DNA of 64,000 nt from Chloroflexota bacterium (GTDB lineage: Bacteria; Chloroflexota; Anaerolineae; Aggregatilineales; Phototrophicaceae): contig JACRPS010000003.1 of the NCBI GenBank assembly GCA_016223085.1, positions 598,045 through 662,044 of the forward strand. Reading direction: 5' to 3'. Below are positions 6,345 to 22,385 of the stretch, piece by piece. Made by a program: the position numbers and the translations under genes. The notes beneath the pieces were generated by a model. It was given only the letters and a program-made list of their open reading frames with translations, searched no databases and had not been told where the DNA came from. Numbering within the stretch: the first letter of the stretch is position 1; each line of letters begins with the position of its first letter.

Positions 6345-6779
6345 TTAGTTAAACGGATTGGTCAGGAGTTCAATCTGCAGCTTCATCAACCCCAGCGTGA
6401 TCTCATCGCCGTTACGGACAGGATACCGCTGCTCCGGTTTGAGCCACTCACCGTTCAGCCGCGTGCCGTTAGCGCTGTGGTTATCGGCAATCACCACGCG
6501 ATCCCCCTCCAGCGCGATCAGCAGATGCTCGCGGGAAACACCCAGATCACCGGCGTTAAACGCACCCAGATCAATATCCGGGTAAAAGCCTTTTTCAGGA
6601 TAAGCCCGCCCCACGATCATCGTGCCTTCCAGATCAAAAATCATCTGCATCTGAAGCTGGACAATCCGCAGGGCAATCCGCCAGGGGCGCGGCATCCCCA
6701 GATCAATCGCTTTCAGTGCGGGACTGGCCGTATCGGTCGGGCTGGGTTCAGGGCCTAATTTGCGTGTCTCGCCTGCCAT
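6345..6779 (-). CDS. FHA domain protein
   Basis: A small 144-aa protein made mainly of one forkhead-associated domain, which binds phosphothreonine peptides. The FHA core spans about 50-140, with MIVGRAYPEK, the GVSREHLLI serine/histidine pair and the HSANGTRLNG loop. The N-terminal 45 residues look disordered. ATG 6779 has GAGGG 7 nt upstream, unlike the ATG at 6803. It is divergent from the giant signalling regulator at 7002, so a common signalling role is plausible. A second FHA protein is encoded at 51249. Confidence 0.88.
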   Translation of the reverse strand: MAGETRKLGPEPSPTDTASPALKAIDLGMPRPWRIALRIVQLQMQMIFDLEGTMIVGRAYPEKGFYPDIDLGAFNAGDLGVSREHLLIALEGDRVVIADNHSANGTRLNGEWLKPEQRYPVRNGDEITLGLMKLQIELLTNPFN

Positions 6780-6958
6780 CGGACAACCCTCAACTAAACT
6801 CATGAACCGGTAGCATCAGTATATCACGTCCTGGTTGCGAAAAACCATGATAAGCCATTTCCCGTACAATTTTTAGTCATTTTTTTACAAGCGCGCTATA
6901 CGGGTAATACAGACTTCGACGGATAACCATATCCAGGCCAACGGGTTTTTGCGGCTTT

Positions 6959-6967
6959 TGTTATAAT
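6959..6967 (+). promoter_or_regulatory. Extended -10 promoter for the hybrid regulator
   Basis: TGTTATAAT lies 35 nt before the ATG at 7002. It has the same extended -10 form as the promoter at 103-111. Confidence 0.55.
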
Positions 6968-7001: not shown

Positions 7002-10000
7002 ATGGCGGTTCAACCTGCGGAAATGTTACTGGTCAGCACAAACGGGGAAGACTTTGTCGCGGCGCTGAACCCGGCTGCTTATCATGTTCAGGCGATAGAC
7101 GATGTGGGCGCGGCGATGGAGGCCCTGCGCGATACCCGTTACGATCTGGTTCTGCTGGACGACAACCTGTTTTCCGACGATATTTTTGCGGCGGTGAAAG
7201 AGATTAAACGGCGCGTGCCGCTGGTGCCGGTGCTGGTGCTGTCGCGTAATGCGGACACTGCCTACCAGACTGACCTGATGGAAGTGGGCGTGGATGACTT
7301 CCTGACGACCAATCTGTCTAGGGAAGAACTGCATCGCCGGCTGCGGCTCATCCTGCGCCAGCAGCGGCAGGCGCGCCAACTGGCGCAGCGCAACCAGAAT
7401 TTACAGTCGCTTACCATGCTGGCTCGCCGCCTGCACAGCGCCACCGACCCGCACGGCTTGATCGTGGATACGATTGACAAGGCGTGCAGCACGTTTAAGC
7501 TGTACGGTCTGGTGATTATCCTGGGTGAAGAAGAACCGTTCCAGATGTACGCCGGGCGGGAAGGGTGCAGCACCGATGGTGCGCTGTACGAGAGTATCCT
7601 CTATCTGAAGGATTACGACCCCTTCCGGCGTGTCATCCGCAGCAACATCGTCCAGGTGTTCCAGAATATCGTGGCCGACCCGCACTACATGCCTATCCCG
7701 GTGCTACCGTCGCCGGAGTCGGCCATCATCGTGCCGCTGAATTATCAGGAACACAAGCTGGGGGCGATGGGGGTGTTTGGTACGGCGCACCTGCCCATCG
7801 GCCACGATGACCTGCTGATTTACGAACTGTTCGCGTCGCAGTTCGCGGTGGCGCTGCACAATGCCCGCCATTACCACAGCCAGCGCATCAGCGCCCAGTC
7901 CAGCCAGCACCTGCTGCGGGCGTGGCAGCGGTTTATCAACCTGCGCACCTTCGACGAGGTGGCGGCCAACCTGCACCAACTGGTCGAGGACATCCCCAAT
8001 GTGAATCAGGCGCTGGTGTGGATGTACTCACCCGACCCCAGCGACACCACGACTATCGTCAAAACCGGTCGCGAGGACGTGACGAAACTGTTCCGCCAGC
8101 TTGAGCAGCAGGGTGTGGTCAACAACCTGATTACCCAGTTGGACGAGCGCCGCTTGCAGCCGATGTCGCTCCAGCCGGGCATGGGGCAGAAAGACCCGTT
8201 GGTGCCGATGTTTAAAGCGCTGCGCGGCCAGCAGCTTTTGCTGGTCGCCATCACCGACTCGGCGCGGCTGATCGGCGGCATCATCGCCAGCGTGTCCAAC
8301 AGCCGCCAGTACAGCAGCGAGGATGCCAAGGTGCTGATCGCTTCGCTGGCGCACGCGGCAGGGCTGGCGCTGGAGCGCACGACACTGATTGAAACCATGT
8401 CGCAGCAAAGCGGACGGCTGGAAGCGCTGCTCCGCAGCATTTCCGAAGGTATTTTCTTCGTAGATAACACCGGCCACGTCGCCTTCTGTAACCCGCAGTT
8501 TACCGAATTGACCGGCATCAACCCGTCCGAAGTGCTGTGGCGTGACTCGCAGACGCTGCTGCGCTATCTGGCCGGACAGTCAAATGACGAAGACCGGGTG
8601 CTGGCGCAGCTTCGGGACGCGGTGAATCAGGTATTGAATTCACCCACGCAGGTGAACGAAGATTACCCGATTGTCGAAATCTCGCTGGACGAACCGGACC
8701 GCGATATTCATGTTGAGTTTATGATGATCGGCGGGTTAAACGGCGATACCCCCGGCTGGGCCGGTATCATCCGCGACACCTCGCGCTTTAAGAGTATGTA
8801 CGGCAGCCAGACGCTGCTGCTGGACGCCATGTCGGAGCGCATCCGCGTCCCCTATGCCCAGGTGCGCGGCCTGCTGGCAACGCTTAACGAGCAGCACAGC
8901 CGCTTTACCCACCGCGAACGCGCCCGCTTCCTGCGGCAGGTGGAAGACAGCGTGGAAAGCCTGGGACACCTCTGGGACAACTTCCTCGAAATGTACACGC
9001 TCCAGGTCTCCGGACTGGTGCTCAGCCGCGAACAGGTGGACATTTACGAGATCGTCCAGCGCGTGCTGGACAGCCGCGCCTTTGCCGAATATCGCCGCCA
9101 GATACAGGTGAAAGCGCCGGCGCGGCTGCCGCTGGTCGAACTGGACGAATTGCGGCTGGAACTGGCGATTGGCAACGTGCTGCACAACGCCATTCACTTC
9201 TCGCCCAAAGGTTCCCCCGTGAATGTCACGCTGGATTACGAAGACGACGAAGTGCGCCTGATTATCGAAGATCAGGGCATCGGCATCCCCCGTGACCAGA
9301 TGGATCGGGTTTTTGAGCCGTTTTTCCAGGCCAGCAACAATACCAACGAGGACGGCGTGGGGCTGGGGCTGTACCTCGCCCGCGAGATCGTGCAGCGGCA
9401 CGGCGGCCATATGTCGCTGCACAGTGAACTGGGCAAAGGCACGGTGGTGATGATCGCCCTGCCGGTGGCCGCGCACGAAGAACTGGTGAAGGTCGCGCCG
9501 CAGCTTCCCGCCGCCGCACCGGCGGTGGGCGCTCCCGCGCCCCGGCGTCTGGAAACGCCCGCTGCGCCGGAACGGGTCACGAACGGCAAGCGGGTGTCTG
9601 ACCGGCAGTTGCAGACGATCATGGTGGTGGAAGGGCGCTCCAGTCTCGTGTCGCATCTGGTCAGGAAACTTCAGGACGAAGGGTACGAACTTATTACCTA
9701 CCGTTCCGGTGAGGAAGCCCTGCGCGATGTAAACACCGTTCGGCTTGACCTGATCTTGCTGGACGTGAATATCCAGGACACCAACGGCCTTGACCTGTGT
9801 GAACGGCTGTGCAAACGCACCGAAGTGCCGATTATCATGCTGGCGGATGAAGCGTCCGAGCCGGAAAAAGTGCGGTCGCTGATGCTCGGCGCGGATGATT
9901 ACATCGCTCGTCCGATCAGCGACGACGAACTGATGGCGCGGGTGAACGTCATCTTCAAGCGGCGGCGCATCCCCGACCGCACCCGCGAACCGCTGGACCT

Positions 10001-10289
10001 GGGCAACCTGTTCATTGATTTCGCCCGGCGCGAGGTGTTCCTGAACAACAAGCCGCTCGAACTGACGCGCATCGAATACGATCTGCTCAACGTGCTGGCG
10101 GTCAACCAGGGGCAGGTGCTGACACACAAGCAGTTGCTCGAAAAAGTGTGGGGGCCGGAATACCAGGGCGAAACGCAGTATCTGTGGGTGAACGTCAGCC
10201 GCCTGCGCAAGAAGCTCGAACCAACGGCGGACAGCCCGCGTTACATCCATACGCAGCCTGGCGTGGGCTACGTCTTCCGCCCATCGTAA
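7002..10289 (+). CDS. Receiver-GAF-GAF-PAS-kinase-like-receiver-winged-helix regulator
   Basis: A 1095-aa one-piece signalling protein, apparently both sensor and transcription factor. Order: receiver-like (7-118), GAF (about 130-290), second GAF (about 305-460), PAS (about 470-600), a helical dimerisation-like segment (603-665), HATPase_c (about 715-822; N box at 725-730, DQGIGIP, FEPFF, GVGLGL), receiver (872-985, D921) and OmpR-type winged helix (998-1094, ending GVGYVFRPS). The segment aligning with the histidine box reads MSERIRVP, so the phospho-acceptor histidine is glutamate. The last receiver has VVEGR for the acidic pair and ARP for the lysine. The ATP site looks intact. Phosphorelay by the usual route therefore seems unlikely; signal-driven conformational control is inferred. 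Confidence 0.88.
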   Translation: MAVQPAEMLLVSTNGEDFVAALNPAAYHVQAIDDVGAAMEALRDTRYDLVLLDDNLFSDDIFAAVKEIKRRVPLVPVLVLSRNADTAYQTDLMEVGVDDFLTTNLSREELHRRLRLILRQQRQARQLAQRNQNLQSLTMLARRLHSATDPHGLIVDTIDKACSTFKLYGLVIILGEEEPFQMYAGREGCSTDGALYESILYLKDYDPFRRVIRSNIVQVFQNIVADPHYMPIPVLPSPESAIIVPLNYQEHKLGAMGVFGTAHLPIGHDDLLIYELFASQFAVALHNARHYHSQRISAQSSQHLLRAWQRFINLRTFDEVAANLHQLVEDIPNVNQALVWMYSPDPSDTTTIVKTGREDVTKLFRQLEQQGVVNNLITQLDERRLQPMSLQPGMGQKDPLVPMFKALRGQQLLLVAITDSARLIGGIIASVSNSRQYSSEDAKVLIASLAHAAGLALERTTLIETMSQQSGRLEALLRSISEGIFFVDNTGHVAFCNPQFTELTGINPSEVLWRDSQTLLRYLAGQSNDEDRVLAQLRDAVNQVLNSPTQVNEDYPIVEISLDEPDRDIHVEFMMIGGLNGDTPGWAGIIRDTSRFKSMYGSQTLLLDAMSERIRVPYAQVRGLLATLNEQHSRFTHRERARFLRQVEDSVESLGHLWDNFLEMYTLQVSGLVLSREQVDIYEIVQRVLDSRAFAEYRRQIQVKAPARLPLVELDELRLELAIGNVLHNAIHFSPKGSPVNVTLDYEDDEVRLIIEDQGIGIPRDQMDRVFEPFFQASNNTNEDGVGLGLYLAREIVQRHGGHMSLHSELGKGTVVMIALPVAAHEELVKVAPQLPAAAPAVGAPAPRRLETPAAPERVTNGKRVSDRQLQTIMVVEGRSSLVSHLVRKLQDEGYELITYRSGEEALRDVNTVRLDLILLDVNIQDTNGLDLCERLCKRTEVPIIMLADEASEPEKVRSLMLGADDYIARPISDDELMARVNVIFKRRRIPDRTREPLDLGNLFIDFARREVFLNNKPLELTRIEYDLLNVLAVNQGQVLTHKQLLEKVWGPEYQGETQYLWVNVSRLRKKLEPTADSPRYIHTQPGVGYVFRPS

Positions 10290-10666: not shown

Positions 10667-13150
10667 ATGGGACGCAGCCGATGGCTCGTACTTGCGATAG
10701 TCGTTCTGGTTCTGGCCACCGCCGTGCCTGCCGCGCGGGCGCAGTCGGTCAGCCTCGGTGTGCAGGCGGGCTATGATGGCCTGTTCCGCGAAGACCAGTG
10801 GCTGCCGCTTTACATCCAGGCCAGCAACGATGGCCCCGCCGTTGAAGGACGGCTGGTTGTCCGTCCGGAAACCTCCGGCAACGCGGTCATCAATACCTAC
10901 AGCTTGCCCATCAGCCTGCCGGAAGGCGCGCGCAAAACCGCTTTTCTGTACATCACGGCCCGCAGTTTCGCCACGCAGGTGCGCGTGGAATTGATGGACG
11001 CTGCCGGCGTGGTGATCGCCGCGCAAACGGCAGGGCTGCGCTCGATTCAGCCGCAGGACCAGCTTTACATCGTCTTCAGCGGCGCAACTGCTGGCACCGT
11101 TGACCTGACGGCTGTCCACAGCGGCGGATATGCTGCCTTCCAGGCTAATTGGACGCTCGACAATCTGCCCGACCGCGCTGCGGCACTGAACGCGGTGGAC
11201 ATGATGCTGTTTACCGACATTGACACTGGCGCATTAAGCACCGGACAGCAACGCGCCCTGGCAGACTGGGTGGCACAGGGTGGACATCTGATGGTATCCG
11301 GCGGGCCAAACTGGCAGGCGACTGCCGCCGGTTTAACCGACCTGCTGCCGCTGGAGCCGCAGTCCAGCACCACGCTGTCTGACCTGTCCCCGCTGGCAAC
11401 GTGGCTGAAGTTGCCGGACACCGGCGGGCTTGACGCTCAGGCCGTGATTGCCAGTGGCACGCTCCGGCCCGACGCCGACATTCTGGTGGATGCGGTTGCT
11501 GTGCCGCTGATTGTGCGGCACAGCCTGGGCGCGGGCACCGTGGATTATCTGGTGTTTGACCCCAACACCCAGCCCGTACGTGGTTGGGCCGGTCTGCCTG
11601 ATCTGTGGTTCAGCCTGGCCACAACCACCGCGCCGCTGCCCGGCTGGGGCAGCATTTACAACTGGGATCAGGCGGCGGCAGCGGCCAACGTTATGCCCGG
11701 TGTGAACCTGCTGCCGGACATCCTGCCGCTGTGTAGCTTCCTGGCGATTTACATCGCGCTGATCGGCCCGCTGAATTACCTCATCCTCAATCGCCTGAAT
11801 CGCCGCGAACTGGCCTGGCTGACCATTCCGCTGCTGATTATTGTGTTCAGCGCCCTGTCGTGGATTATCGGCTCGAACCTGCGCGGCAGCGAAGTGAAGG
11901 TCAGCCGCCTGACCGTCGTCCAGTCCTGGCCAGATGCCGAACGGGCCCGCGTTCAGGAAATGCTCGGCCTGCTCTCGCCGCGCCGTGACCAGTATACCCT
12001 GGCCGTCTTCGACAACAGCTTCCTGCGCCCGGTGCCGCGCATTGGCGGGCAGGGGTCGCTGCTGTCTGGCAACGTGGAAGCTAGCGCTGATGTGCAGCAG
12101 ACGGACAGCTTCCGCGCCGCCGATTTCCCGGTAGACGCCAGTTTCATTGCCACCTTCAATGCCAGCACCACCATCGAAAAACCCGACATCAGCGGGCAGG
12201 CGCGCCTGTTTTACGACACGCTGGACGGCCAGCAAATCCTGCGCGGTTCGGTGCGTAACGACACTGACCAGACCCTGCGCGATGCTGTTATTCTGGCGCG
12301 GGGCACCAGCCTGCGCCTGGAACATCCGGTTGAACCCGGCGACGTGGTGACGTTTGACCTCACCCTGACCGGCGAAGAACTGCCCGCGCCGGCCCGGCTG
12401 GCCTACGCTCCCGGCGGCTTCATCCCGCTGCTGTCGCGCTCGTACAGCTACCGCAACACGATTCCGCAAACCCTGTCGGACATCCTGCAAACGACTACTT
12501 CCGAGTGGCTGTATTCCAGCCGGTCGCCGGGTGATAATCCGCAGGCGCAGGAAGCCTACCGCCGCCGCATTTTCCTGTCGTCGTTTGTCAACGACCCCTA
12601 CAACGTCACGTCCGGTCGTGGCAGCCGTGCCTTTCTGGCCGCCTGGGCTGACCAGTCGCCGCTGACGATGGAACTGGAAGGTACGGACTGGTCATCGCTG
12701 GACACGACGCTGTATCTGGTAGAACTGGATGTGGACATCGAAAGACCGGCGGGCGACGTGCTCATTTCCGCCGATCAGTTCACCTGGACGATGGCAAACG
12801 CCACCGGCGCGGAACTGGTTGCGCCGTTTTCGATTGGCCTCGAACCCGGTGACGAAGCGACCTTCCGCTTCACGCCGCTGCCGGAAGCGGTGCTGGACCA
12901 GGTGGCTGAACTGATTATCAATATTGATCGGGGGGCGAATATCAGCCGCACCGTGCCGCTGCAAATCTGGGACTGGGAGCAGGCCGCCTGGGATGATGTG
13001 GAGATCAACAGCGGTAACCAGCATGCCATCCGCAACCCGGCGCGTTACCTGGGGCCACAGAACGCCGTGCAGCTTCGCATCATCGCGGACGCGATTGGCG
13101 GCTATCCGCGCATTCAGGATGTCACGGTTGAGCAGCGCGGGCGGTTTTAG
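10667..13150 (+). CDS. Large exported membrane protein of the MoxR/Bat-type cluster
   Basis: An 827-aa protein with a signal peptide (cleavage probably after ARA near residue 25), a long beta-rich outer part, two membrane helices at about 361-385 and 395-412, and a further beta-rich C-terminal half. Residues about 180-225 (FTDIDTGALSTGQQRALADW then GGHLMVSGGPN) resemble the class I glutamine-amidotransferase-like fold of Bat-cluster membrane proteins, without a visible catalytic Cys. It precedes the ABC ATPase and permease genes and probably works with them in the envelope. The exact family is unknown to me. ATG follows an AGGA site. Confidence 0.8.
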   Translation: MGRSRWLVLAIVVLVLATAVPAARAQSVSLGVQAGYDGLFREDQWLPLYIQASNDGPAVEGRLVVRPETSGNAVINTYSLPISLPEGARKTAFLYITARSFATQVRVELMDAAGVVIAAQTAGLRSIQPQDQLYIVFSGATAGTVDLTAVHSGGYAAFQANWTLDNLPDRAAALNAVDMMLFTDIDTGALSTGQQRALADWVAQGGHLMVSGGPNWQATAAGLTDLLPLEPQSSTTLSDLSPLATWLKLPDTGGLDAQAVIASGTLRPDADILVDAVAVPLIVRHSLGAGTVDYLVFDPNTQPVRGWAGLPDLWFSLATTTAPLPGWGSIYNWDQAAAAANVMPGVNLLPDILPLCSFLAIYIALIGPLNYLILNRLNRRELAWLTIPLLIIVFSALSWIIGSNLRGSEVKVSRLTVVQSWPDAERARVQEMLGLLSPRRDQYTLAVFDNSFLRPVPRIGGQGSLLSGNVEASADVQQTDSFRAADFPVDASFIATFNASTTIEKPDISGQARLFYDTLDGQQILRGSVRNDTDQTLRDAVILARGTSLRLEHPVEPGDVVTFDLTLTGEELPAPARLAYAPGGFIPLLSRSYSYRNTIPQTLSDILQTTTSEWLYSSRSPGDNPQAQEAYRRRIFLSSFVNDPYNVTSGRGSRAFLAAWADQSPLTMELEGTDWSSLDTTLYLVELDVDIERPAGDVLISADQFTWTMANATGAELVAPFSIGLEPGDEATFRFTPLPEAVLDQVAELIINIDRGANISRTVPLQIWDWEQAAWDDVEINSGNQHAIRNPARYLGPQNAVQLRIIADAIGGYPRIQDVTVEQRGRF

Positions 13151-13270
13151 ACGTATACTGGAGAGAGCGAGGAGCGAGGAGCAATCAGCAGTCAGCGACG
13201 AGCCGGTTTTAGCTGATCGCTGAAAGCTGACCGCCAACCGCTACAGGCTGATTCGAGCAGGAGTGTTACG

Positions 13271-14230
13271 GTGACGGACTTGATTATCGAAACGCAGGAC
13301 TTGCGCAAACGCTTTGGCAAATTCGACGCGGTGAACGGCCTGTCGCTGGCCGTGCCTGCCGGTTCGATCTACGGCTTCGTCGGGCCAAACGGCGCAGGCA
13401 AAACCACGACGATGCGGATGCTGACCACGCTCACCCGCCCCACCGCCGGCGAGGCGTGGGTGGCGGGACATTCCGTGCTTAAAGAACCGCGCGCCGTGCG
13501 CCGCGCCATCGGCTACATGCCGGATGAGTTCGGCGTTTACGACGATATGCGGGTGTGGGAATACCTGGACTTTTTTGCCGCCTGTTACGACATCCCCGAA
13601 AACAACCGCAAGCGCCTGATTGACGACCTGCTGGAACTGGTTGACCTGACGCACCGCCGCGACGACATGGTGGACAAGCTCAGTCGCGGCATGAAGCAGC
13701 GCCTGTCGCTGGCGCGCACGCTGGCGCACGACCCGTCCGTATTGATTCTGGACGAACCGGCTTCGGGACTTGACCCGCGCGCCCGCGTTGAAATCCGCGA
13801 ACTGCTGGTTGAACTGGCGAAGATGGGCAAAACCATCTTCTTCTCGTCGCACATCCTGGCGGATGTGAGCGAAATCTGCACCCACATCGGCATCATCGAA
13901 GCCGGGCAGATGGTGGCGCAGGGCAGTATGCAGGAGATGCGGTCGCAGTTGATGCCACACCGCGAGATACTGGTGACGGTGCGCGACGCAGATACAGCGG
14001 AGAAAGCTTTATCGCTGGTGGCCGGGCTGCCTGGCGTGGTCAATGTGCAGCGGCTTGACCCGCGCGGCGGGCGGTCGCGACTGCGGATTGATTACACCGG
14101 CGACGACGAAGGTGTAGCGGCGATCAACCAGAAACTGGCCGCCGAGAACATCGCCGTGCTGGGCTTCACCGAGGAAACCAAAGACCTGGAAGCGATGTTC
14201 ATGCGCGTCACCAAAGGCGTGGTGACGTAA
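13271..14230 (+). CDS. ABC transporter ATP-binding protein
   Basis: The 319-aa nucleotide-binding subunit of an ABC-2-type exporter or envelope ABC system, partner of the permease at 14424. It has Walker A GPNGAGKTTTM, signature LSRGMKQRL, Walker B VLILDEPASGLDP and the switch histidine in FFSSHI. About 100 residues follow the ATPase core (LVTVRDADTAEKALSLV onward), as in DrrA/CcmA/GldA-like proteins. GTG start with an AGGAG site. The upstream spacer holds tandem CAGTCAGC-like words. In Planctomycetes and related phyla such ATPases accompany MoxR/DUF58/BatA genes, as here. Confidence 0.93.
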   Translation: MTDLIIETQDLRKRFGKFDAVNGLSLAVPAGSIYGFVGPNGAGKTTTMRMLTTLTRPTAGEAWVAGHSVLKEPRAVRRAIGYMPDEFGVYDDMRVWEYLDFFAACYDIPENNRKRLIDDLLELVDLTHRRDDMVDKLSRGMKQRLSLARTLAHDPSVLILDEPASGLDPRARVEIRELLVELAKMGKTIFFSSHILADVSEICTHIGIIEAGQMVAQGSMQEMRSQLMPHREILVTVRDADTAEKALSLVAGLPGVVNVQRLDPRGGRSRLRIDYTGDDEGVAAINQKLAAENIAVLGFTEETKDLEAMFMRVTKGVVT

Positions 14231-14343
14231 TGTATACCCCTATCCCCCGTGCCCCCTTTCCCCGCAAGCAGAGAAAGGGGGAGAGAAACCCAAACGCACG
14301 GCGTTTAAGCCCCTCTCCGCTGGCGGAGAGGGTTAGGGAGAGG
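14231..14343. repeat. CCCTCTCC/GGAGAGGG-type spacer repeat
   Basis: Two hairpins lie between ATPase and permease genes. CCCCCTTTC pairs with GAAAGGGGG, and CCCTCTCCGC-TG-GCGGAGAGGG (14311-14332) is perfect, followed by TTAGGGAGAGG. Related CCCC...GGGG arms occur at 63913-63997 inside a coding frame. Confidence 0.7.
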
Positions 14344-14423
14344 TAAAAGTGGCGATAGTTCATTTACCAGCGATGAACCATCGCCATGAGGTCCATTTTG
14401 GTTCGGCATGAGGAATTTGACGT

Positions 14424-15752
14424 ATGATCGAAGAAGCCGCACCCCTGATTGAAATGCCGGAAGAAGCCCTGACGCCGCGCGAACATCGGCTGGAACGCGG
14501 CGCGGCGGTGCTGCGCTGGGGCGCGATTGCCAACACGGCATTGTCGGTGCTGGTGATGCTGCTGGCGCTGGCGGGTGGGCTGCGGCTGATTCCCGATCTG
14601 TTCCCAACGCTGCACGCGGCGCTGCTGGCGCGGGTGGCCGCGCCGGATGATGCCGCCATTGCCGGGGTGATTCTGCTGACGCAGGTCAACATCAGCCTGC
14701 TGCTGGTACTGATGGTCGGCATCTTGGCGCGTGAGGTGTGGGCGCTGGTCGGCGTGTGGCTGCTGGCGCTGGTTAATCTGGCGGCAGTGGCCGTGTTTGG
14801 CTTCACGCCGGCGCTGCTGACGGTGGTGTTTGCCGTTTGGAGTGGTATCGTCATCACGCGGGATACCGGCGCCTTCCGGCTGAACCCGGTCATGCTGAAA
14901 GAACTGCGCGGGCGGATGCGCGGGGTGCGGGCGTTTTTTGTCCTCACGGTCTACCTGGCGCTGATGAGCAGCTTTACGGCCCTGCTCTATCTGGTATACA
15001 TCCCCGTCAACCGCGCCACCGGCTCAGCGGCGGCGGGCGAGGTCGGGCGCGTGCTGTTTATGGGCATCGTTGGTATCGAACTGGTGCTGATTATCTTCAT
15101 TGCCCCGGCTTTCACGGCGGGCGCGATCACGGGCGAACGCGAACGGCAGACCTACGATCTGCTGCGCACAACGCTGCTGCCCAGCCCGTCGTTTGTGCTC
15201 GGCAAGCTGGAGTCGGCCTTAAGCTATGTGCTGCTGCTGCTGCTGGCGGCCATCCCGCTGCAAAGTATCGCCTTCCTGTTTGGCGGCGTGACCGAAGGCG
15301 AACTGGTCCTCTCATTTGTTGTTCTGACGGTGACGGCCATCACGCTCGGCACGGTTGGCATCTATTTCTCGGCCATCACCCCGCGCACGCTGACCGCCAG
15401 CGTTCGGTCGTACTCGGCCACACTGATCGGGGCGTTTGTTGCGCCAATCGTGGCGTCCATCGTCTTAAGCGTGGTGCGGACGGCGCTTGGTCTCTCATCG
15501 CCGATCATCGAGGCGGCGCTGGTGTACGTCAACGATTTCCTGGTGAGCCTGAATCCCATCGCCACCGCGCTCACCACGCAGGAACTGCTGATTAACCGGC
15601 AGGTCGTCGGCTTCTGGACGGATACGCTGGCATCCAACGGCAGCACCATCCCGCGCGTCTCGCCCTGGATTACGTTTACAATCATCTACCTGGTGGTATC
15701 CGCCGTGCTGGTCGTGCTGTCCATTCGCCGCACGCGCAAGGTCGAAGGTTAA
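14424..15752 (+). CDS. ABC-2-type transporter permease
   Basis: The 442-aa membrane subunit of the ABC system. About 12 hydrophobic stretches are visible, starting near residues 30-55, and the ABC-2 family signature region AGAITGERERQTYDLLRTTLL (about 232-252) corresponds to the cytoplasmic coupling loop. ATG is preceded by GAGGAATTTGACGT. The short cytoplasmic N terminus carries EEALTPREHRLERG. It is probably co-transcribed with the ATPase upstream and the coiled-coil protein downstream. The substrate is unknown. Confidence 0.9.
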   Translation: MIEEAAPLIEMPEEALTPREHRLERGAAVLRWGAIANTALSVLVMLLALAGGLRLIPDLFPTLHAALLARVAAPDDAAIAGVILLTQVNISLLLVLMVGILAREVWALVGVWLLALVNLAAVAVFGFTPALLTVVFAVWSGIVITRDTGAFRLNPVMLKELRGRMRGVRAFFVLTVYLALMSSFTALLYLVYIPVNRATGSAAAGEVGRVLFMGIVGIELVLIIFIAPAFTAGAITGERERQTYDLLRTTLLPSPSFVLGKLESALSYVLLLLLAAIPLQSIAFLFGGVTEGELVLSFVVLTVTAITLGTVGIYFSAITPRTLTASVRSYSATLIGAFVAPIVASIVLSVVRTALGLSSPIIEAALVYVNDFLVSLNPIATALTTQELLINRQVVGFWTDTLASNGSTIPRVSPWITFTIIYLVVSAVLVVLSIRRTRKVEG

Positions 15753-15756
15753 AAGA

Positions 15757-15829
15757 AGTTCCGAGTTTGAGTTGTTGAGTTCCGAGTAAAAGTCCGGGAA
15801 CTCGGAACTCGGAACTTGGAACTGAGGAA
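15757..15829. repeat. Inverted repeat of GGAACTC words
   Basis: The left arm contains GTTCCGAG twice and the right arm contains repeated GGAACTC/GGAACTT words, so the spacer can fold. The right end GAGGAACTAAGG supplies the ribosome site of the next gene. Confidence 0.65.
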
Positions 15830-15836
15830 CTAAGGT

Positions 15837-17687
15837 ATGGCAACACAGGCTGCTCTACAGGAACGAAGCACCGCGCTGGCGCAGTTAGTGCGTGGCTGGG
15901 ATCGCCGCCTGCGGGCGCAGCAGGCCGCTGTCTGGCTGCCACGCGCAGTGCTGCCGGGGCTGGCGCTGGGCATCACGGCGGCGGTGGTATCACGGCTGCG
16001 TCCCTGGCTGCTGCCGGGACAGGTCTTACTGCTGGCAGCGGCAGGTGTAGCGCTTGGTATCGTGGTCATGCTGCTGGCCGTGTGGCTGTGGCCGCGCCCG
16101 ATGTTAACCGCCGCGCGGCGCTTCGACCGGCTGTTTGGCTTGCAGGAGCGTGTCTCCACCGCGCTGGAACTGCTGGAAGGCCGGCTGCAAAGCAGCGGCG
16201 AACTGGCGGCGCGGCAGATTGACGACGCCTGGATGCGGGCGCAAACGGTGCGCGCCGGTGACGCGCTGCCGCTGGTGTTCCGCTGGCGCGAGTGGACGGC
16301 GGTGCTGGCGCTGCTGGCCGTGTTGGTGCTGCTGGTCGTGCTGCCCAACCCGCAGACCGCAGCAATTGCCCAGAACGCAGCGCAGGAAGCGGCGCTGGCG
16401 GATGCCGCCGAAGACCTGAAGGACATCACCGAGGAAATTGCGTCGGAGGCGGCGCTGACGCCGGAACAGCGCGAGCAGATTTTGCAGGCGCTGGAAGACA
16501 GCATCACCACGCTGCAGGAGCCGGATGTCTCCCCGGAGGAAGCGTTCGCGTCACTATCCGATACCGAGGCGGCGCTGCAAAGCCAGGCCGACCAGATGCA
16601 GCAGCAGAGCGCGGAGCAGCAGGCGGCGATGGAAGCTGCCGCCGAGGCGCTGCGGCAGGCGCTGGAGCAGGCGGCGCAGGCGCAGCAGGGGCAGGAGTCC
16701 GCCATCCCAACGCTGGAGCAACTGCGCCAGCAGATGCAGCAGATGACCGAACAGCAGCGCCAGCAGGCGGCGCAGGCGTTGGAACAGGCCGCGCAGGCGC
16801 TGCAGCAGGCCGACCCGAACACCGCGCAGGCGCTCGAACAGGCGGCGCAGGCGCTGCGGCAGGGCGATACCGGCGCAGCGCAGCAGGCGCTTGACCAGGC
16901 GATGCAGGACATGCAGGCCAGCCAGCAGGCGCAGCAAAGCCAGCAGCAGGCCGCCCAAAATCTGGAGCAGGCCGCGCAGGATGTGCAGCAGGCCGCCGAT
17001 CAGGTCAGCCAGCAGACGCAACAGGGACAGCCGACCCAGCAGCAGCAGGGACAGCAGGGACAGCTTGGCCAGCCGCAGCAGGGGCAGCAGGCGCAGAGCC
17101 AGCCGGGACAGCCGGGAGACCAGGGCCAACAGGGGCAGGAAGGACAGCCGGGCCAGCCGGGACAGGAGGGACAGCCGGGACAGGCCGGCCAGCAGCCCGG
17201 CGATCAGGGGCAGCCCGGTCAGGTCGGTCAGCAGCCGGCGGACGGCGCGGGTGAGCAGGGGCAGCAGGGACAGCCAGCGAACAGCCCATCTGATAGACCA
17301 GCGGCGGGCGCGGGTGATGCTCCCGTCGGCGCGGGTTCGGACGACCTGGGCGGCCAGCCGCAGCAGCAGGCCGGACAGATTGACACCGGCAACAACCCCG
17401 ACGGCACGGGCGAAGGGCAGTTCGACCCGGTGTACGCGCCCCGGCGCATCGGCGGCCAGGGCGACGATCAGGTGGTGCTGGAGCCGGACGCGGGCAACGT
17501 GCCCTCGGTCGAAGGCGAATTCGCCGAAAACCCGACCGGCGACGCCAGTGTGCCCTACAACCAGGTGTTCAGCGACTATGCCGACGCCGCCAACCGCGCG
17601 CTGGAAAGCGACTACATTCCGTTAGGGCTGCGCGACGTGGTGCGTGACTATTTCTCGTCGCTGGAGCCACGCCAGGGGCAGCGGTAA
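15837..17687 (+). CDS. Membrane-anchored coiled-coil protein with collagen-like tract (DUF4175-like)
   Basis: A 616-aa protein. Two membrane helices near 38-85 and a third near 155-175 anchor it. Residues about 185-390 form a Gln/Ala-rich coiled coil. Residues about 400-475 are Gln/Gly/Pro-rich, including perfect Gly-X-Y triplets such as GQEGQPGQPGQEGQPGQAG. The conserved C-terminal motif YADAANRALESDYIPLGLRD then VVRDYFSSL ends the protein. DUF4175-type proteins occupy this position in Bat-type clusters of other phyla. The repeat region may form a long rod or triple helix; its role is unknown. Confidence 0.78.
   Translation: MATQAALQERSTALAQLVRGWDRRLRAQQAAVWLPRAVLPGLALGITAAVVSRLRPWLLPGQVLLLAAAGVALGIVVMLLAVWLWPRPMLTAARRFDRLFGLQERVSTALELLEGRLQSSGELAARQIDDAWMRAQTVRAGDALPLVFRWREWTAVLALLAVLVLLVVLPNPQTAAIAQNAAQEAALADAAEDLKDITEEIASEAALTPEQREQILQALEDSITTLQEPDVSPEEAFASLSDTEAALQSQADQMQQQSAEQQAAMEAAAEALRQALEQAAQAQQGQESAIPTLEQLRQQMQQMTEQQRQQAAQALEQAAQALQQADPNTAQALEQAAQALRQGDTGAAQQALDQAMQDMQASQQAQQSQQQAAQNLEQAAQDVQQAADQVSQQTQQGQPTQQQQGQQGQLGQPQQGQQAQSQPGQPGDQGQQGQEGQPGQPGQEGQPGQAGQQPGDQGQPGQVGQQPADGAGEQGQQGQPANSPSDRPAAGAGDAPVGAGSDDLGGQPQQQAGQIDTGNNPDGTGEGQFDPVYAPRRIGGQGDDQVVLEPDAGNVPSVEGEFAENPTGDASVPYNQVFSDYADAANRALESDYIPLGLRDVVRDYFSSLEPRQGQR
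17027..17275. repeat. In-gene minisatellite encoding Gly-Gln-Pro/Glu repeats
   Basis: Degenerate 9-12 nt units such as CAGCCGGGACAG repeat within the coiled-coil protein gene and encode the collagen-like tract. Such DNA is prone to length change by slippage. Confidence 0.8.
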
Positions 17688-17691
17688 ACAC

Positions 17692-18561
17692 TTAGGTGGG
17701 GACAGGCTGCGGCGTGGTGGCGACAATCCGCTGCCGGCGGTAGTGCCAGGCCAGCGTCGCCAGCGGCAGCAGCAGGAATGGGATGATCGTCCAGGTCAGC
17801 AGGGATAACGCCGCCGCGATCAGCCCCAGCGGCACCAGCAGCCAGGCGGGCGCGGTGTCCATCAGCGTCATCGTGGAGTAAAACATGCCAATTGGCATTG
17901 CCAGCAGGGCGCAGGCGCGCGCCACCGGTTTGGACTGGAACTGCCCCCAGATGAACACGGCGACCGCCGCGACCGCCAGCAGCGGCCACAAATCCGGTAC
18001 GAGGCGCACTAGGCTGAAGATACCCGGCGTGTTGCTGACGGACAGCAGCCAGTTCGAGTGAGGAACGTTGACCATCATTTCGCTCGGCCAGTTGGGACGG
18101 ATGAGGAAAGACGGTAGCCAGAGCAGTGCCGTCAGCGCCAGCCAGCGCCACAGTGTGCGCCGGTCATGGCGCAGCCAGTCGAACAGATGCCAGGTGAGCA
18201 GCACCAGCGCGGCGTGGGGTTTCATCGTCATCAGCGCGCCCAGCGCCGCCCCGCGCCAGTGGCGCCCCAGCCCACCGGCCATAAACCAGAACAGGAGATC
18301 CACCTGGCCTGAACTCAACACGTGCAGCACGGGTATATACAGCAACCACTGCCAGAAGCGCCGCCGCAGCGCGGCGATCAACATGCCCACGTTGGCGATC
18401 TGCCACAATCCCAGCGCGACCGGCAGCGGCAGCAGCGCCACGAAGGCGATGAAGTACGCGAATGGCAGCGGGTAAAAAAAATCGGCGACGGTATAGGGGC
18501 TGTGGCCGTCCAGCAGCGCCCGCCCTGCACTCCACAGTATCGAGAAGTCCCAGCCGTTCAT
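17692..18561 (-). CDS. Polytopic glycosyltransferase, GT87-like (DUF2029)
   Basis: A 289-aa membrane protein with about seven to eight hydrophobic segments. The N terminus (WDFSILWSAGRALLDGHSPY then FFYPLPFAYF) matches the first loop of GT-C family 87 polyprenyl-phosphate mannosyltransferase-like enzymes, in which an early aspartate near the membrane is catalytic. At 289 aa it is shorter than usual (about 400), so it may be a reduced form. The start at 18561 has AGGAGAAACAGG in front. It is on the opposite strand to the Bat-type cluster and ends 5 nt from the coiled-coil gene, so it looks like an insertion into that cluster. Confidence 0.65.
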   Translation of the reverse strand: MNGWDFSILWSAGRALLDGHSPYTVADFFYPLPFAYFIAFVALLPLPVALGLWQIANVGMLIAALRRRFWQWLLYIPVLHVLSSGQVDLLFWFMAGGLGRHWRGAALGALMTMKPHAALVLLTWHLFDWLRHDRRTLWRWLALTALLWLPSFLIRPNWPSEMMVNVPHSNWLLSVSNTPGIFSLVRLVPDLWPLLAVAAVAVFIWGQFQSKPVARACALLAMPIGMFYSTMTLMDTAPAWLLVPLGLIAAALSLLTWTIIPFLLLPLATLAWHYRRQRIVATTPQPVPT

Positions 18562-18710
18562 CCTGTTTCTCCTGTGGTTGTCGCCATGATACAGGGTTAT
18601 TCTAAAGTCAAGTTTTCCGTTCATCCATTGAGATTATTATTCCGGTTTGCTAACAAGGAACATGGCTCGTGTCTGATAAACCGCAAGCGCCGAATGTGAG
18701 ATAAAGACTA

Positions 18711-18763
18711 GTGTCACCTAAACTTTTCCAGAACTAAGAAACCAGCATGGACTAACCGTTATC
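18711..18763 (+). pseudogene. Out-of-frame 5' end of the DUF4160 gene
   Basis: From GTG 18711 one frame reads VSPKLFQN and then stops. From 18722 the frame of the following gene reads TFPELRNQHGLTVI directly into its first methionine. Combined they give a typical DUF4160 N terminus (SPKLF...GLTVIMF). A one-base indel near 18723-18730 separates them, so this is a recent mutation, a sequencing error or a recoding site. Confidence 0.5.
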
Positions 18764-19009
18764 ATGTTTCCAAACGATCACCTTCCAGCACACGTTCACG
18801 TATACCAGGGCGAAAAGGTGGCAAGAATTACTTTTGAAACGGTTGATTTGGATGTGATGGATAGTTACGGATTTCGGCAAAAAGAGTTGGATAATATCTG
18901 TAAGCTCTTAAAACCGTATCGTCAGCGATTGATAGAACTGTGGAATGCAATACACCCGGAAATCCCATTTGAACCAATAAGAGGTAATAGTAATGATGAA
19001 AGACCCTAA
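18764..19009 (+). CDS. DUF4160 family protein
   Basis: A small 81-aa protein of the DUF4160 family, recognised by FPNDHLPAHVHVYQGEK, the conserved NDH-P-HVHV block. Members usually sit next to a DUF2442 gene, as here, and the pair is often treated as a possible toxin-antitoxin-like unit, though function is not established. The natural N terminus of about 16-18 residues seems to be separated by a frameshift, so the product from ATG 18764 may be truncated and less active. The region is clearly AT-richer than its neighbours, which points to transfer. Confidence 0.75.
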   Translation: MFPNDHLPAHVHVYQGEKVARITFETVDLDVMDSYGFRQKELDNICKLLKPYRQRLIELWNAIHPEIPFEPIRGNSNDERP

Positions 19010-19268
19010 GCTATATCACTTCGTGCGTCCCACAGCCGTTAACATCCAGGACGGCAAACTCCGAGTGACGCTGGAAGATGAACGAACGATCTCTACTCCC
19101 CTACGCTGGTATCCCTGGCTCGAAAACGCCACGCCGGAGCAGCAAAACACGGTTGAACTGCTGCCCGACGCGATCTACTGGCCGGAGCTGGACGAAGGGC
19201 TGGAAGTGGAAGGAATGTTACGGGGTATTCGTCCTGCCCCCAATGCACACGAAAGATTAATCACCTAA
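18993..19268 (+). CDS. DUF2442 family protein
   Basis: A 91-aa DUF2442 protein, recognised by ISTPLRWYPWLENATPEQ and the DAIYWPELDEGLEVEGML block. It overlaps the DUF4160 gene by 17 nt, the common arrangement for this pair. An AAGAGG site precedes ATG ATG at 18993/18996. Its biochemical role is unknown; a regulatory or antitoxin-like role is a guess drawn from gene pairing. It lies 13 nt before moxR but does not belong to that cluster in other organisms, so it is probably passenger DNA. Confidence 0.8.
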   Translation: MMKDPKLYHFVRPTAVNIQDGKLRVTLEDERTISTPLRWYPWLENATPEQQNTVELLPDAIYWPELDEGLEVEGMLRGIRPAPNAHERLIT

Positions 19269-19281
19269 GAGGGAAAACTAT

Positions 19282-20280
19282 ATGACCGACGCACCCGTAC
19301 AGGATATTCAAATCGAAGAATTTAGCCGCATCGTCCAGGCAATTGAGGCGGAAGTAGGCCGCGTCATTGTCGGGCAGAAAGAGGTCGTGCGCGGCGTGCT
19401 GATCTGCGTGCTGGCCGGACGCCACGCGCTGCTGGAAGGTGTGCCCGGCCTCGGCAAAACCATGCTGATTCGCGCCCTAGCCGACGCGCTGGACCTCAAG
19501 TTCGCGCGCATCCAGTTCACGCCCGATCTGATGCCCGCCGACATCACCGGCACGGACATCCTCGAAGACGACGAGACCACCGGGCGCAAGGTCAAGGTGT
19601 TCCAGCCGGGACCGGTGTTCGCCAACCTGATTCTGGCGGACGAAATCAACCGCGCCACACCCAAAACCCAGTCGGCGCTGCTGGAAGCGATGCAGGAGCA
19701 GACCGTTACGGTCGCCAACCGCAGCTACCGGCTCGAACCGCCGTTCTTCGTGCTGGCGACACAGAACCCGCTGGAGATGGAAGGCACGTACCCGCTGCCG
19801 GAAGCGCAGCTTGACCGCTTTATGTTTAAGGTCAATGTCCGCTATCCATCCGTCACCGATCTGGTGAGCATCCTCGACCGCACCACCGGCGTGGATACCC
19901 CTACTGCCCATAAAGTGGCCGACGGCAGGCAGATCATCCGCATGGGCAAACTGGCGCTCAACACCCCGATTGCCAGCCACGTCAGCGAATACGTGGCAAA
20001 GCTGATCGTCGCCACCCACCCGGAAGACCCGTCCGCGCCGCCGCTGGTCAAGGATTACGTGCGCTACGGTTCCAGTCCCCGTGGGGCGCAGGCGCTTATC
20101 ATCGGCGGCAAAATTAACGCCCTGCTGGAAGGGCGTTATAACGTATCATTTGACGACATTCAGGCCGTCGCCGCGCTGGCGCTGCGCCATCGCCTGCTGC
20201 TGAACTTTGAAGGGCTGGCCGAAGGCATCAGCACCGATGACGTGGTAGCCGAGTTGTTAAAAAGCGTGGAAAAAGCCTAA
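19282..20280 (+). CDS. MoxR-family AAA+ ATPase
   Basis: A 332-aa MoxR ATPase, a chaperone-like AAA+ protein that acts with DUF58 and VWA-domain proteins in assembly or activation of envelope or metal-containing complexes. Walker A is GVPGLGKT (53-60) and Walker B ILADEINR (117-124), followed by the MoxR-typical TPKTQSALLEAMQE and the sensor segment FFVLATQNPLEMEGTYPLPEAQLDRF. ATG follows AGAGGGAAAACTAT. Its stop codon runs straight into a word-repeat hairpin. Confidence 0.95.
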   Translation: MTDAPVQDIQIEEFSRIVQAIEAEVGRVIVGQKEVVRGVLICVLAGRHALLEGVPGLGKTMLIRALADALDLKFARIQFTPDLMPADITGTDILEDDETTGRKVKVFQPGPVFANLILADEINRATPKTQSALLEAMQEQTVTVANRSYRLEPPFFVLATQNPLEMEGTYPLPEAQLDRFMFKVNVRYPSVTDLVSILDRTTGVDTPTAHKVADGRQIIRMGKLALNTPIASHVSEYVAKLIVATHPEDPSAPPLVKDYVRYGSSPRGAQALIIGGKINALLEGRYNVSFDDIQAVAALALRHRLLLNFEGLAEGISTDDVVAELLKSVEKA

Positions 20281-20282
20281 CA

Positions 20283-20344
20283 CAGAGGTTCGGAGACACA
20301 GAGCCATAAAAGGTTTAAATATGCTCTGTGTCTCCGAACCTCTG
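20283..20344. repeat. Word-repeat hairpin left of the GNAT gene
   Basis: A perfect 22-bp inverted repeat. The arms at 20283-20304 and 20323-20344 consist of CAGAG-type words, with an 18-nt AT-rich loop. The array continues to 20356 and ends in CGAGG, the ribosome site of the next gene. Confidence 0.85.
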
Positions 20345-20374
20345 AGACTCTGTGTTCACTTCTTCGAGGTTTTC

Positions 20375-20821
20375 ATGGCGAATGTGACATTGCGAGACAT
20401 CACCGCCGACAACTGGCGGACATGTGTGAAACTGAAAGTCGCGCCGGAGCAGGAACGCTTTGTCGCTTCCAATGCGTTTTCGCTGGCGCAGTCGAAGTAC
20501 GAACCGGAACTGATTCCGCAGGGTATCTACGACGGCGAGACGATGGTCGGTTTCCTGATGTACCGCCCGGCAGATTTTGGGCTGGCGAAGGTGTGGCTGA
20601 TTTACCGGCTGATGGTGGCACACGACCAGCAGGGCAAGGGCTATGGCCGCGCCGGGATGGAATGCCTGTTGGAACGCCTGCGCGCCGTTCCCGGCTACAA
20701 CGCCGTACTGATTAGCTTCGTGCCGGACAACAACGCCGCGCGGAAGCTCTATGCCAGCCTGGGCTTCGAGGATACCGGCGAAATCGAGGATGGCGAGATC
20801 GTGTACCGGCTGGGATTATGA
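20375..20821 (+). CDS. GNAT-family N-acetyltransferase (spermidine-acetyltransferase-like)
   Basis: A 148-aa acetyltransferase. VTLRDITADNWRTCVKLKV at the N terminus and the acetyl-CoA loop DQQGKGYGRAGMECL, followed by NNAARKLYASLGFEDTGE, fit the polyamine/diamine acetyltransferase branch (BltD/PaiA-like); the substrate is inferred. ATG 20375 follows CGAGGTTTTC. The gene sits between moxR and the DUF58 gene, which are otherwise standard neighbours, and it has a word-repeat hairpin on each side. It looks like a cassette inserted into the cluster. Confidence 0.85.
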   Translation: MANVTLRDITADNWRTCVKLKVAPEQERFVASNAFSLAQSKYEPELIPQGIYDGETMVGFLMYRPADFGLAKVWLIYRLMVAHDQQGKGYGRAGMECLLERLRAVPGYNAVLISFVPDNNAARKLYASLGFEDTGEIEDGEIVYRLGL

Positions 20822-20840
20822 TGAAGAAGAGAAAAAGCGT

Positions 20841-20918
20841 AACACAGAGTTACAGAGGCTCAGAGACTCGGAGATTCCTGAAATTCTCTGTGCCTCTGTA
20901 TCTCTGAGCCTCTGTGTT
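20841..20918. repeat. Word-repeat hairpin right of the GNAT gene
   Basis: The left arm (20841-20873) reads as 8-nt units NNNCAGAG repeated four times. The right arm (20886-20918) is the inverted counterpart with the same CAGAG cores but different spacer triplets. CCGAGG after the right arm serves the DUF58 start. Confidence 0.85.
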
Positions 20919-20936
20919 AAATTCCGAGGTTTTGAT

Positions 20937-21836
20937 ATGGCAGATGAGAAGCTGTTTGACGAGACGACACGGCGCAAGCTGGAACAGCTCATGCTGGTGG
21001 CGCAGCGCGTGCGCGCCGGGGCGATGAAGGGCGAGCGCCGTTCCAACAAGCGCGGCACGAGCATCGAGTTCGCCGACTACCGCAACTACGCGCGCGGCGA
21101 CGACCTGCGCCGGCTGGACTGGAACATCTACGGGCGGTTGGACCGGCCCTTTATCAAGCTGCTGGAAGATGAAGAGGATTTGGCCGTCCACCTGATTCTG
21201 GACAGCTCTGCCAGTATGGACTGGCCACAGGACGGCGAGCGCGAGCACAATAAGTTTCTCTACGCGCGGCGGCTGTTTGCCGGGCTGGCCTATATCTCGA
21301 TGGCGAGCAATGACCGCCTGGCGATGCTGGCGACCAGCGACACCACCGCCGCGCCGTTTGGCCCGATCCGGGGGCGCGGCTTCGGGCTGGCGATGCTGCA
21401 CTACGTCAGCAGCCTCAAAGCGGGCGGCGCGACCGATCTCAACGCCGGTTTACGCTCTTACGCGCTGCGCGGCGGTCGTCCCGGCCTGTGTTTTATCATC
21501 AGCGACCTGTTTTCGCCGGGCGGCTGGCAGCAGGGCGTCAACGCGTTGCTGTCCAAAGGCCACGAAGTCGGCCTGCTTCACGTACTGTCGCCGGATGAGA
21601 TTGATCCCCCCATTGGCGGTGATTTACGGCTGGTGGACGTGGAAACCGGCCAGACGCAGGAAGTGACGATTGACGGCGGGATGCGCGACCTGTACGTCAG
21701 GCGGCTGGAAGCCTGGCGCGACGGCATCCGCGCCGAGTGTGTCAAGCGCGGCGTGCACTATGTCGGCGTGGACACCGGCACCGCCTGGGAAAAGGTGATT
21801 CTGTTCCACCTGCGGCGGCTGGGGGCCGTGAAGTAA
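20937..21836 (+). CDS. DUF58 domain protein
   Basis: A 299-aa protein of the DUF58 family that pairs with MoxR ATPases. The family hallmark is at about 47-70 (DYRNYARGDDLRRLDWNIY), followed by a von Willebrand A-like fold with a metal-ion site DSSAS (89-93). It is cytoplasmic, with no membrane segment, unlike many longer DUF58 proteins. ATG 20937 has CCGAGG upstream. It is presumed to bind the MoxR ATPase and, through it, the membrane VWA proteins at 22386 and 24613. Confidence 0.93.
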   Translation: MADEKLFDETTRRKLEQLMLVAQRVRAGAMKGERRSNKRGTSIEFADYRNYARGDDLRRLDWNIYGRLDRPFIKLLEDEEDLAVHLILDSSASMDWPQDGEREHNKFLYARRLFAGLAYISMASNDRLAMLATSDTTAAPFGPIRGRGFGLAMLHYVSSLKAGGATDLNAGLRSYALRGGRPGLCFIISDLFSPGGWQQGVNALLSKGHEVGLLHVLSPDEIDPPIGGDLRLVDVETGQTQEVTIDGGMRDLYVRRLEAWRDGIRAECVKRGVHYVGVDTGTAWEKVILFHLRRLGAVK

Positions 21837-21845
21837 AAATACAGA

Positions 21846-21888
21846 AAAGACTCAACGCAAAGAACGCAAAGAGGCAAAGGCACAAAGG
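21846..21888. repeat. Left terminal word-repeat of the GxxExxY cassette
   Basis: The sequence begins AAAGACTCAACGCAAAG and continues with GCAAAG-type words. The first 17 nt are identical, in inverted orientation, to the end of the repeat at 22330-22371. Together they form imperfect terminal inverted repeats of about 43 bp. Confidence 0.8.
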
Positions 21889-21900
21889 TAATCAGAACTT

Positions 21901-21933
21901 AACGCCAAGCTGCAAAGGAGCAAAGGCGCAAAG
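21901..21933. repeat. Second word-repeat array before the GxxExxY gene
   Basis: Units CTGCAAAG, GAGCAAAG and GCGCAAAG follow AACGCCAAG and end 4 nt before the start codon. Confidence 0.75.
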
Positions 21934-21937
21934 AATA

Positions 21938-22324: not shown

Positions 22325-22329
22325 CCTTT

Positions 22330-22371
22330 CCTTTGCGTCTTTGCCCCTTTGCGCCTTTGCGTTGAGTCTTT
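22330..22371. repeat. Right terminal word-repeat of the GxxExxY cassette
   Basis: Read on the minus strand it starts AAAGACTCAACGCAAAG and continues GCGCAAAG, GGGCAAAG, ACGCAAAG. It pairs with 21846-21888 and lies 15 nt before batA. Confidence 0.8.
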
Positions 22372-22385
22372 AAAGGCTTTTCGAT

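Follow-up and report, generated by a model that had tools for sequence, protein, structure and literature searches.

Gene and domain organization of the regulator

The window analysed here, a stretch of 64,000 nucleotides from a Chloroflexota bacterium (assembly GCA_016223085.1, contig JACRPS010000003.1, positions 598,045 to 662,044), encodes a one-chain transcription regulator in which a histidine kinase-like half without phospho-accepting His and two degenerate receivers (REC1 and REC2) are united with an OmpR-type winged helix DNA-binding domain (wHTH). Its gene is an uninterrupted open reading frame (ORF) on the + strand, running from the ATG at 7002 to 10289 and coding for 1095 aa; it was delimited from the ORF and Pfam, and orthologues align with it over their full length. 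The genome has a size of 6.0 Mb in 37 contigs, with a completeness of 97.85%.

The domains succeed each other in the order REC-GAF-GAF-PAS-DHp-HATPase-REC-OmpR wHTH, all on the + strand. Pfam detected two Response_reg stretches, GAF_2, PAS, HATPase_c (E 4.9e-29) and Trans_reg_C (E 2.1e-25), the last one bearing out the C-terminal OmpR-type DNA-binding domain proposed in a first-pass annotation of this DNA; HisKA stayed sub-threshold over residues 603-666 (14.8 bits for a cut-off of 26.9). REC1 (residues 5-120; 7014..7361), placed from the alignment and the secondary structure of a predicted model, is followed by GAF1 (residues 130-290; 7389..7871), of which GAF_2 covers 172-286 and whose outer limits were set by eye on the alignment and the model, and by a GAF2-like domain (residues 300-465; 7899..8396) recognised by eye from a GAF-like succession of strands and helices in the model, with no Pfam call. 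The Pfam-defined PAS domain (residues 470-596; 8409..8789) precedes the His-less DHp (residues 600-668; 8799..9005), a two-helix hairpin with predicted helices at 593-631 and 637-669 that is also supported by its ratio of non-synonymous to synonymous substitutions (dN/dS). The HATPase_c or CA domain (residues 669-826; 9006..9479; Pfam and alignment) is separated by a fast-evolving linker (residues 827-868; 9480..9605; mean identity 0.42), of low confidence in the model (predicted local distance difference test, pLDDT, <50 at 824-868), from REC2 (residues 870-985; 9609..9956; alignment), and the chain ends with the OmpR/PhoB-type wHTH (residues 1000-1093; 9999..10280; Pfam Trans_reg_C). In the full-chain AlphaFold2 model, built on an alignment of 72 sequences, mean pLDDT is 79.6 and the folds of DHp, CA, REC2 and wHTH are confident.

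These 72 proteins, all fusions of kinase, receiver and wHTH in one chain, were selected from 117 loci (L001, L011-L126) by retaining single ORFs with a match extending across residues 612 to 1080 and discarding rows with identical last 500 residues; L103, L110, L111 and others dropped out for coverage. In the tree, the regulator and its closest relatives form a 28-protein clade on one side of a branch with a support of 100/100; L054 and L112, both long branches, group together there, which leaves their exact placement unsure. The near relatives of the genome are for the most part listed as Anaerolineae, Chloroflexi or Aggregatilineales bacteria.

Loss of the phospho-accepting histidine

The H-box of the regulator reads S-E-R-I-R-V-P where the solved kinase HK853 has S-H-E-L-R-T-P. 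Glu612 (codon 8835..8837) occupies the His position both in this alignment and in that of the 72 homologues, confirming the H-to-E change noticed at first pass. The homologues also indicate that the loss is fixed, this position being E in 23, D in 3 and G in 2 of the 28 clade members and His in none, within flanks that are well kept (P617 in 28/28, R615 in 27/28); three members have a His one residue later, at 613. The residue located four positions after the His site is V, M, I or L throughout the clade, at the place where HisKA phosphatases carry Thr or Asn. At E up to 0.001, Pfam recognised HisKA in a single clade member and HATPase_c in 26 of them.

The regulator is an exception among the kinases of its own genome that were compared: among 40 of the 141 matches in the genome, taken best first from those reaching the H-box, His is kept in all 39 that cover the site, L151 not covering it. 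In a published survey, His was absent from 0.9% of HisKA domains, 722 of 76,471 (PMC12632262). The regulator thus lacks the phospho-accepting His required of a functional HisKA kinase and, with its apparently maintained kinase fold and the selection acting on its gene, it would qualify as a pseudo-histidine kinase.

Atypical receiver domains

In REC2, the acidic pair is reduced to E877 (DD1) followed by G878 (DD2) in the segment VVEGR, A948 stands in place of Thr/Ser, D949 occupies the T+1 position and R970 replaces the Lys, with the acceptor D921 (9762-9764) retained. Throughout the clade, DD2 is Gly and T+1 is Asp (28/28 each), residue 967 is aromatic (Y 24, F 4) and P971 is invariant; position 948 is more variable (A 24, T 3, S 1), as is position 970 (R 14, N 6, K 5, others 3). 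In REC1, S12 and T13 lie at the acidic pair and T103 at the Lys, with D53 and S81 present; none of the 25 clade rows covering these positions has the acidic pair or the Lys, and residue 53 is D in 20, E in 4 and V in 1. The earlier claim that both receivers lack residues needed for phosphorylation therefore holds for VVEGR, A948, R970 and the REC1 Lys, and has to be restricted in view of Asp921, Asp53 and Ser81. Both domains can be classified as pseudo-receivers, REC2 being devoid of DD2, T and K and REC1 of both acidic residues and K, and not as aspartate-less receivers, considering D921 in all clade members and D53 in the regulator.

DD2 normally binds the metal and T+1 is normally a small residue giving access (PMC12632262). 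Residue 949 (9846-9848), the T+1 of REC2, is acidic in 28/28 clade members, in 19 of 26 fusions of the Ktedonobacteria type described below and in none of the 18 other fusions; this acidic residue might mimic the charge of a phosphoryl group.

Selective constraint and the ATP site

The gene was found in 16 of the 17 genomes of the genus searched, the exception being G010, which is 76% complete, and as open frames of 86 to 29% identity in many separate assemblies. Among 15 close clade members, the mean identity is 0.94 for the wHTH, the most conserved domain, 0.78 for DHp, 0.77 for REC2, 0.63 for CA and 0.42 for the linker; the Trans_reg_C winged helix is detected by Pfam in all 28. Four close pairs gave dN/dS values of 0.00-0.038 for DHp, 0.025-0.055 for REC2, 0-0.015 for the wHTH, 0.025-0.243 for CA and 0.079-1.07 for the linker, hence below 0.25 in all computable cases for the folded domains, with dS >1 in one pair (L043/L044). 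DHp and REC2 are thus under purifying selection, and these low values imply that the parts deprived of the His are maintained; a DHp without His under such constraint is likely doing something.

The N, G1, F and G2 ATP-binding motifs are intact in the regulator and its near relatives. The Asn involved in Mg-ATP binding, N729, is lost in 12 of the 28 clade members (L024, L049, L054, L096-L102, L104, L112), and a nucleotide role, or even ATP binding, is therefore not general to the clade. ATP/ADP dependence may apply to the regulator and its near relatives, and would not be what the family conserves.

Different losses among one-chain fusions

The five residues H, DD2, D, T/S and K are all retained in only 8 of the 72 one-chain fusions and in 20/20 of the two-gene kinase and regulator pairs retrieved with the same query, one of which (L179) has Asn at CA position 757. 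These pairs were hand-picked, not drawn at random, from 48 rows with internal stops, and the share of broken relays among the fusions is biased upwards since they were found by their likeness to a defective protein. The counts are not independent either, the rows being related: on the tree, at least 3 changes are required to explain the pattern of His, 2 that of Asp and 5 that of the complete five-residue set.

The 44 fusions outside the clade of the regulator differ in where the relay is broken. Among the 11 sister proteins, His is lost in nine (R 6, S 1, N 1, D 1), DD2 is acidic in ten, and Asp and Lys are kept in all. Five of them (L030, L031, L032, L105 and L126) combine an Arg in place of the H-box His with a complete receiver, and could possibly be phosphorylated only in trans. 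The 26 Ktedonobacteria-type fusions all keep the His, and have S (15), A (10) or E (1) at the position of the acceptor Asp. L055-L074, L086, L087, L093 and L094, mostly titled Ktedonobacteria or related, are PAS-kinase-REC-wHTH chains that form, with their intact His and a receiver Asp position read as Ser or Ala, a mirror image of the regulator. In five of the ten Ala rows (L067, L068, L070, L086 and L087) the loop following the Asp position is one residue shorter and an Asp stands at the next position in four of these five, which makes the loss of Asp alignment-dependent there.

Gao, Wu and Stock (PMC11253607) argued that two DNA-binding domains come together without a stimulus once they are tethered to a kinase dimer. 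The fusion of kinase and regulator may in this way have made the phosphate dispensable, a direction that fits their argument.

Genomic environment

Upstream of the regulator gene, and divergent from it, a gene on the - strand (6345..6803, the true start being maybe the second Met at ~6779) encodes a GarA-like protein with an FHA (phosphothreonine-binding) domain, as judged from Pfam and from PDB matches to the GarA and TB39.8 structures. As expected of GarA-like proteins, it combines a Thr close to the N-terminus with the GR, SRxH and NG motifs. Upstream sequence of 900 bp or more was available for 24 clade loci, and 22 of these have the divergent FHA gene, 21 at a distance of up to 500 bases and L042 at 1.45 kb; it was not found upstream in L040 and L112, and four more clade loci had <300 bp upstream. 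L103, a truncated relative outside these counts, has the gene as well. A Thr near the N-terminus occurs in 23/23 translated FHA proteins, on putative start codons, in the motif [EDKNQ]-T-[RTGK]-[KRNS]-[LFM], with a double Thr in L101 and L102 only; L098 and L100 read NAT and NLT for NGT. With the window protein as tblastn query (E up to 1), the only match in 52 other loci (sister and Ktedonobacteria-type fusions, three copies and some clade members, with flanks from almost nothing to ~6 kb) was L103. The arrangement may reflect control of the FHA gene by the regulator or, alternatively, an action of the FHA protein on the latter.

Between the two genes, TATAAT at 6962..6967 (+) is the likely -10 element of the regulator gene, aligned in 18/18 upstream regions, and GTATA toward the FHA gene is partly kept, in 10 of these 18. 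A second small FHA gene, coding like the first one for ~150 aa, lies in the window at 51249-51710 (+). Elsewhere in the genome, the OmpR-type regulator match L003 (G000:C35:174934-175707) stands ~300 bases from an FHA match (G000:C35:176004-176231), which hints at a possible recurrent pairing of FHA and OmpR-type genes.

The downstream cluster (10667-24305, +) codes for a large protein with weak similarity to DUF4350/DUF7408, an ABC ATPase, a likely ABC permease with no Pfam match, a Gln-rich protein, MoxR, a DUF58 protein and a BatA-like VWA protein. In close relatives, a DUF4350-like/ABC ATPase/ABC permease cluster, continued by MoxR, DUF58 and BatA, is found 3' of the gene, with a gap of >1 kb in several. 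It was considered as a set of target genes and rejected: it was not found in the distant loci L051, L054 and L075 (6 kb on both sides), where the FHA gene is retained, alone among the window neighbours tested. Pfam revealed no kinase or response regulator among 13 neighbouring window proteins, conserved neighbours having been sought with window genes only.

Proposed functioning and alternative explanations

These characteristics suggest that the regulator probably acts, within a single polypeptide whose scaffold is kept, as an allosteric DNA-binding switch independent of phosphotransfer. It would derive from the fusion of a histidine kinase with an OmpR-type response regulator, the His-Asp phosphorelay having been abandoned and the scaffold retained, and would not autophosphorylate. 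The GAF/PAS tandem would take the input, presumably a ligand, and pass the signal down the coiled coil of a dimeric DHp, so that the CA domain and the pseudo-receiver would hold the two DNA-binding domains differently and putative target genes would be controlled; in this particular regulator, whose CA pocket is intact, the state may depend on occupancy of this pocket by ATP or ADP. The first-pass annotation, which proposed an ATP- and ligand-dependent DNA-binding switch working without phosphorelay, is confirmed in its observation and partly supported, in a refined form, in its interpretation. Its exclusion of a phosphorelay is well supported by the sequences (His in 0/28, Gly at DD2 and V/M/I/L at the phosphatase position in 28/28), and the DNA-binding switch is consistent with the presence and top conservation of the wHTH. 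The ATP dependence is compatible with the motifs intact here and does not extend to the family, N729 and D757 being both present in only 16 of the 28 clade members.

This last count is one of several points that weigh against the proposed functioning. The acceptor Asp921 is D in 28/28 clade members, which would be odd if it were never phosphorylated, K970 is retained in 5/28 and a Thr/Ser at 948 in 4/28, and a receiver altered at DD, T or K may still be phosphorylated (PMC12632262). A His also exists at 632, 20 residues past E612 and immediately beyond the first predicted DHp helix (593-631), and is conserved in 26/28 clade members; out of what the first pass held to be refuting, a conserved nearby His that is phosphorylated, the alignment provides the conservation, hence one half. 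H632 is equally kept in the sister proteins (10/11), including both with a normal H-box His, and is present in 0/26 Ktedonobacteria-type fusions. The whole relay is kept in 6 of the 7 remaining, more distant fusions, and fusion therefore does not force its loss. In addition, no conserved OmpR-type repeat or convincing operator appeared in the 18 aligned clade upstream regions, and the predicted TM-score of the model (0.36) supports no arrangement of the domains relative to each other, its multi-domain Foldseek matches having low query TM-scores.

The retention of Asp921 could mean that it is still phosphorylated in trans, weakly or slowly, with a different histidine kinase or a small phosphodonor as phosphate source, the pseudo-kinase half having only a tuning function. 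Together with D921, the aromatic residue 967 and P971 are conserved in 28/28 and the genome contains many other kinases, and residual phosphorylation is allowed in such receivers (PMC12632262). This explanation is nevertheless quite improbable, considering the Gly in place of the metal-binding DD2 and the Asp at T+1, where a small residue gives access, both in 28/28, and the loss of the Lys in 23/28 and of the Thr/Ser in 24/28. The strong conservation of the DHp would also agree with a role in a larger His-Asp network, through heterodimers with an active kinase or sequestration of a partner, the wHTH being a secondary output; DivL (PMC4211667) and an evolved ChrS (PMC9491836) are precedents. 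We consider it very unlikely, the wHTH being the most conserved domain and none of the 13 Pfam-scanned window neighbours being a kinase or response regulator, although a partner could be encoded elsewhere. The damage to several catalytic motifs and an assembly of 37 contigs at 97.85% completeness could point to a pseudo-enzyme in decay or to an error of assembly; open frames at 86 to 29% identity in many assemblies, the occurrence in 16/17 searched genomes of the genus and dN/dS <0.25 in all folded domains computed, that is, recurrence and purifying selection, argue so strongly against it that it deserves practically no credence.

A link with Ser/Thr phosphorylation would add to the phosphotransfer-independent switch and is compatible with it: the FHA protein, switched by phosphorylation of its N-terminal Thr, would bind the regulator and set its DNA-binding state. 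The divergent FHA gene in 22/24 loci, even where the other tested neighbours were not found, the PDB matches to GarA and TB39.8, the N-terminal Thr in 23/23 proteins (putative starts) and 25 Ser/Thr kinase matches over the cut-off in the genome are in favour of it. The conserved divergent pair may however reflect nothing more than control of the FHA gene by the regulator; the tblastn search of the 52 other loci (flanks up to ~6 kb) gave L103 only, FHA genes are common in the genome (29 matches) and no phospho-site was identified on the regulator. We consider such a rewiring unlikely. A broader scenario is rather unlikely, in which fusions of Chloroflexota would on more than one occasion have become allosteric one-component regulators through different losses, the fusion making the His-Asp phosphate dispensable, and in which the signal would here have been handed to Ser/Thr phosphorylation read by the FHA protein.

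The union of sensor, pseudo-kinase, pseudo-receiver and DNA-binding output in one chain, and the availability of natural relatives in which His, Asp and ATP site have been lost separately, would allow a direct study of how a two-component scaffold could pass a signal to DNA without phosphate.

Comparison with known systems

A literature search covering titles and the beginnings of abstracts, most subscription papers being out of reach, retrieved no paper describing the protein family of the regulator. The neighbouring FHA protein resembles GarA/OdhI-type proteins by its short size, its single FHA domain and its Thr near the N-terminus, with GarA and TB39.8 among the PDB matches. In GarA/OdhI, the N-terminal Thr has a role in switching; the motif [EDKNQ]-T-[RTGK]-[KRNS]-[LFM] of the neighbour, with its double Thr restricted to L101 and L102, differs from theirs and its switch function is putative.

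The hybrid two-component systems (HTCS) of Bacteroides also combine a kinase and a DNA-binding response regulator in one chain, with DNA-binding domains tethered to the kinase dimer, and this fusion places two DNA-binding domains close to each other independently of the stimulus (PMC11253607). They differ by their membrane sensors, AraC-type DNA-binding domains and phosphorylation-dependent DNA binding (PMC11253607), whereas the regulator has GAF/PAS inputs, an OmpR-type DNA-binding domain, no phospho-His and damaged receivers. It therefore shares with HTCS the one-chain association of a kinase-like part and a DNA-binding regulator, and neither the AraC-type domain nor a competent receiver. 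DivL of Caulobacter likewise has kinase-like DHp and CA domains with the His replaced, by Tyr550, and measurements gave it neither kinase nor phosphatase activity (PMC4211667), so that a kinase-like protein without His can work without either activity. DivL senses the phosphorylated regulator of a partner and acts on CckA, whereas the regulator possesses its own receiver and DNA-binding domain.

OmpR-type output in the absence of Asp phosphorylation is described for ChxR, HP1043 (PMC3960148, PMC8345958) and RitR (PMC12632262). The regulator carries its OmpR-type output behind a sensor and a kinase-like half. ChxR, HP1043 and RitR are, by contrast, stand-alone proteins with neither of these known to be fused to them. 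In the NifL-NifA system, a kinase-like H domain and a GHKL domain binding ATP/ADP control a transcription factor by contact; the GHKL domain does so without ATP hydrolysis, and ADP stabilises the NifL-NifA complex (PMC9866876). A kinase-like nucleotide-binding domain can therefore control a transcription factor by contact, and the NifL-NifA complex 9qq6 is among the Foldseek matches of the model (E 1e-15, TM-scores 0.13 and 0.28). NifL and NifA are two proteins, with an activator of another type, whereas in the regulator sensor and OmpR-type output are carried by one chain. This one-chain pseudo-kinase/pseudo-receiver transcription regulator is thus a variant of the known pseudo-two-component proteins.

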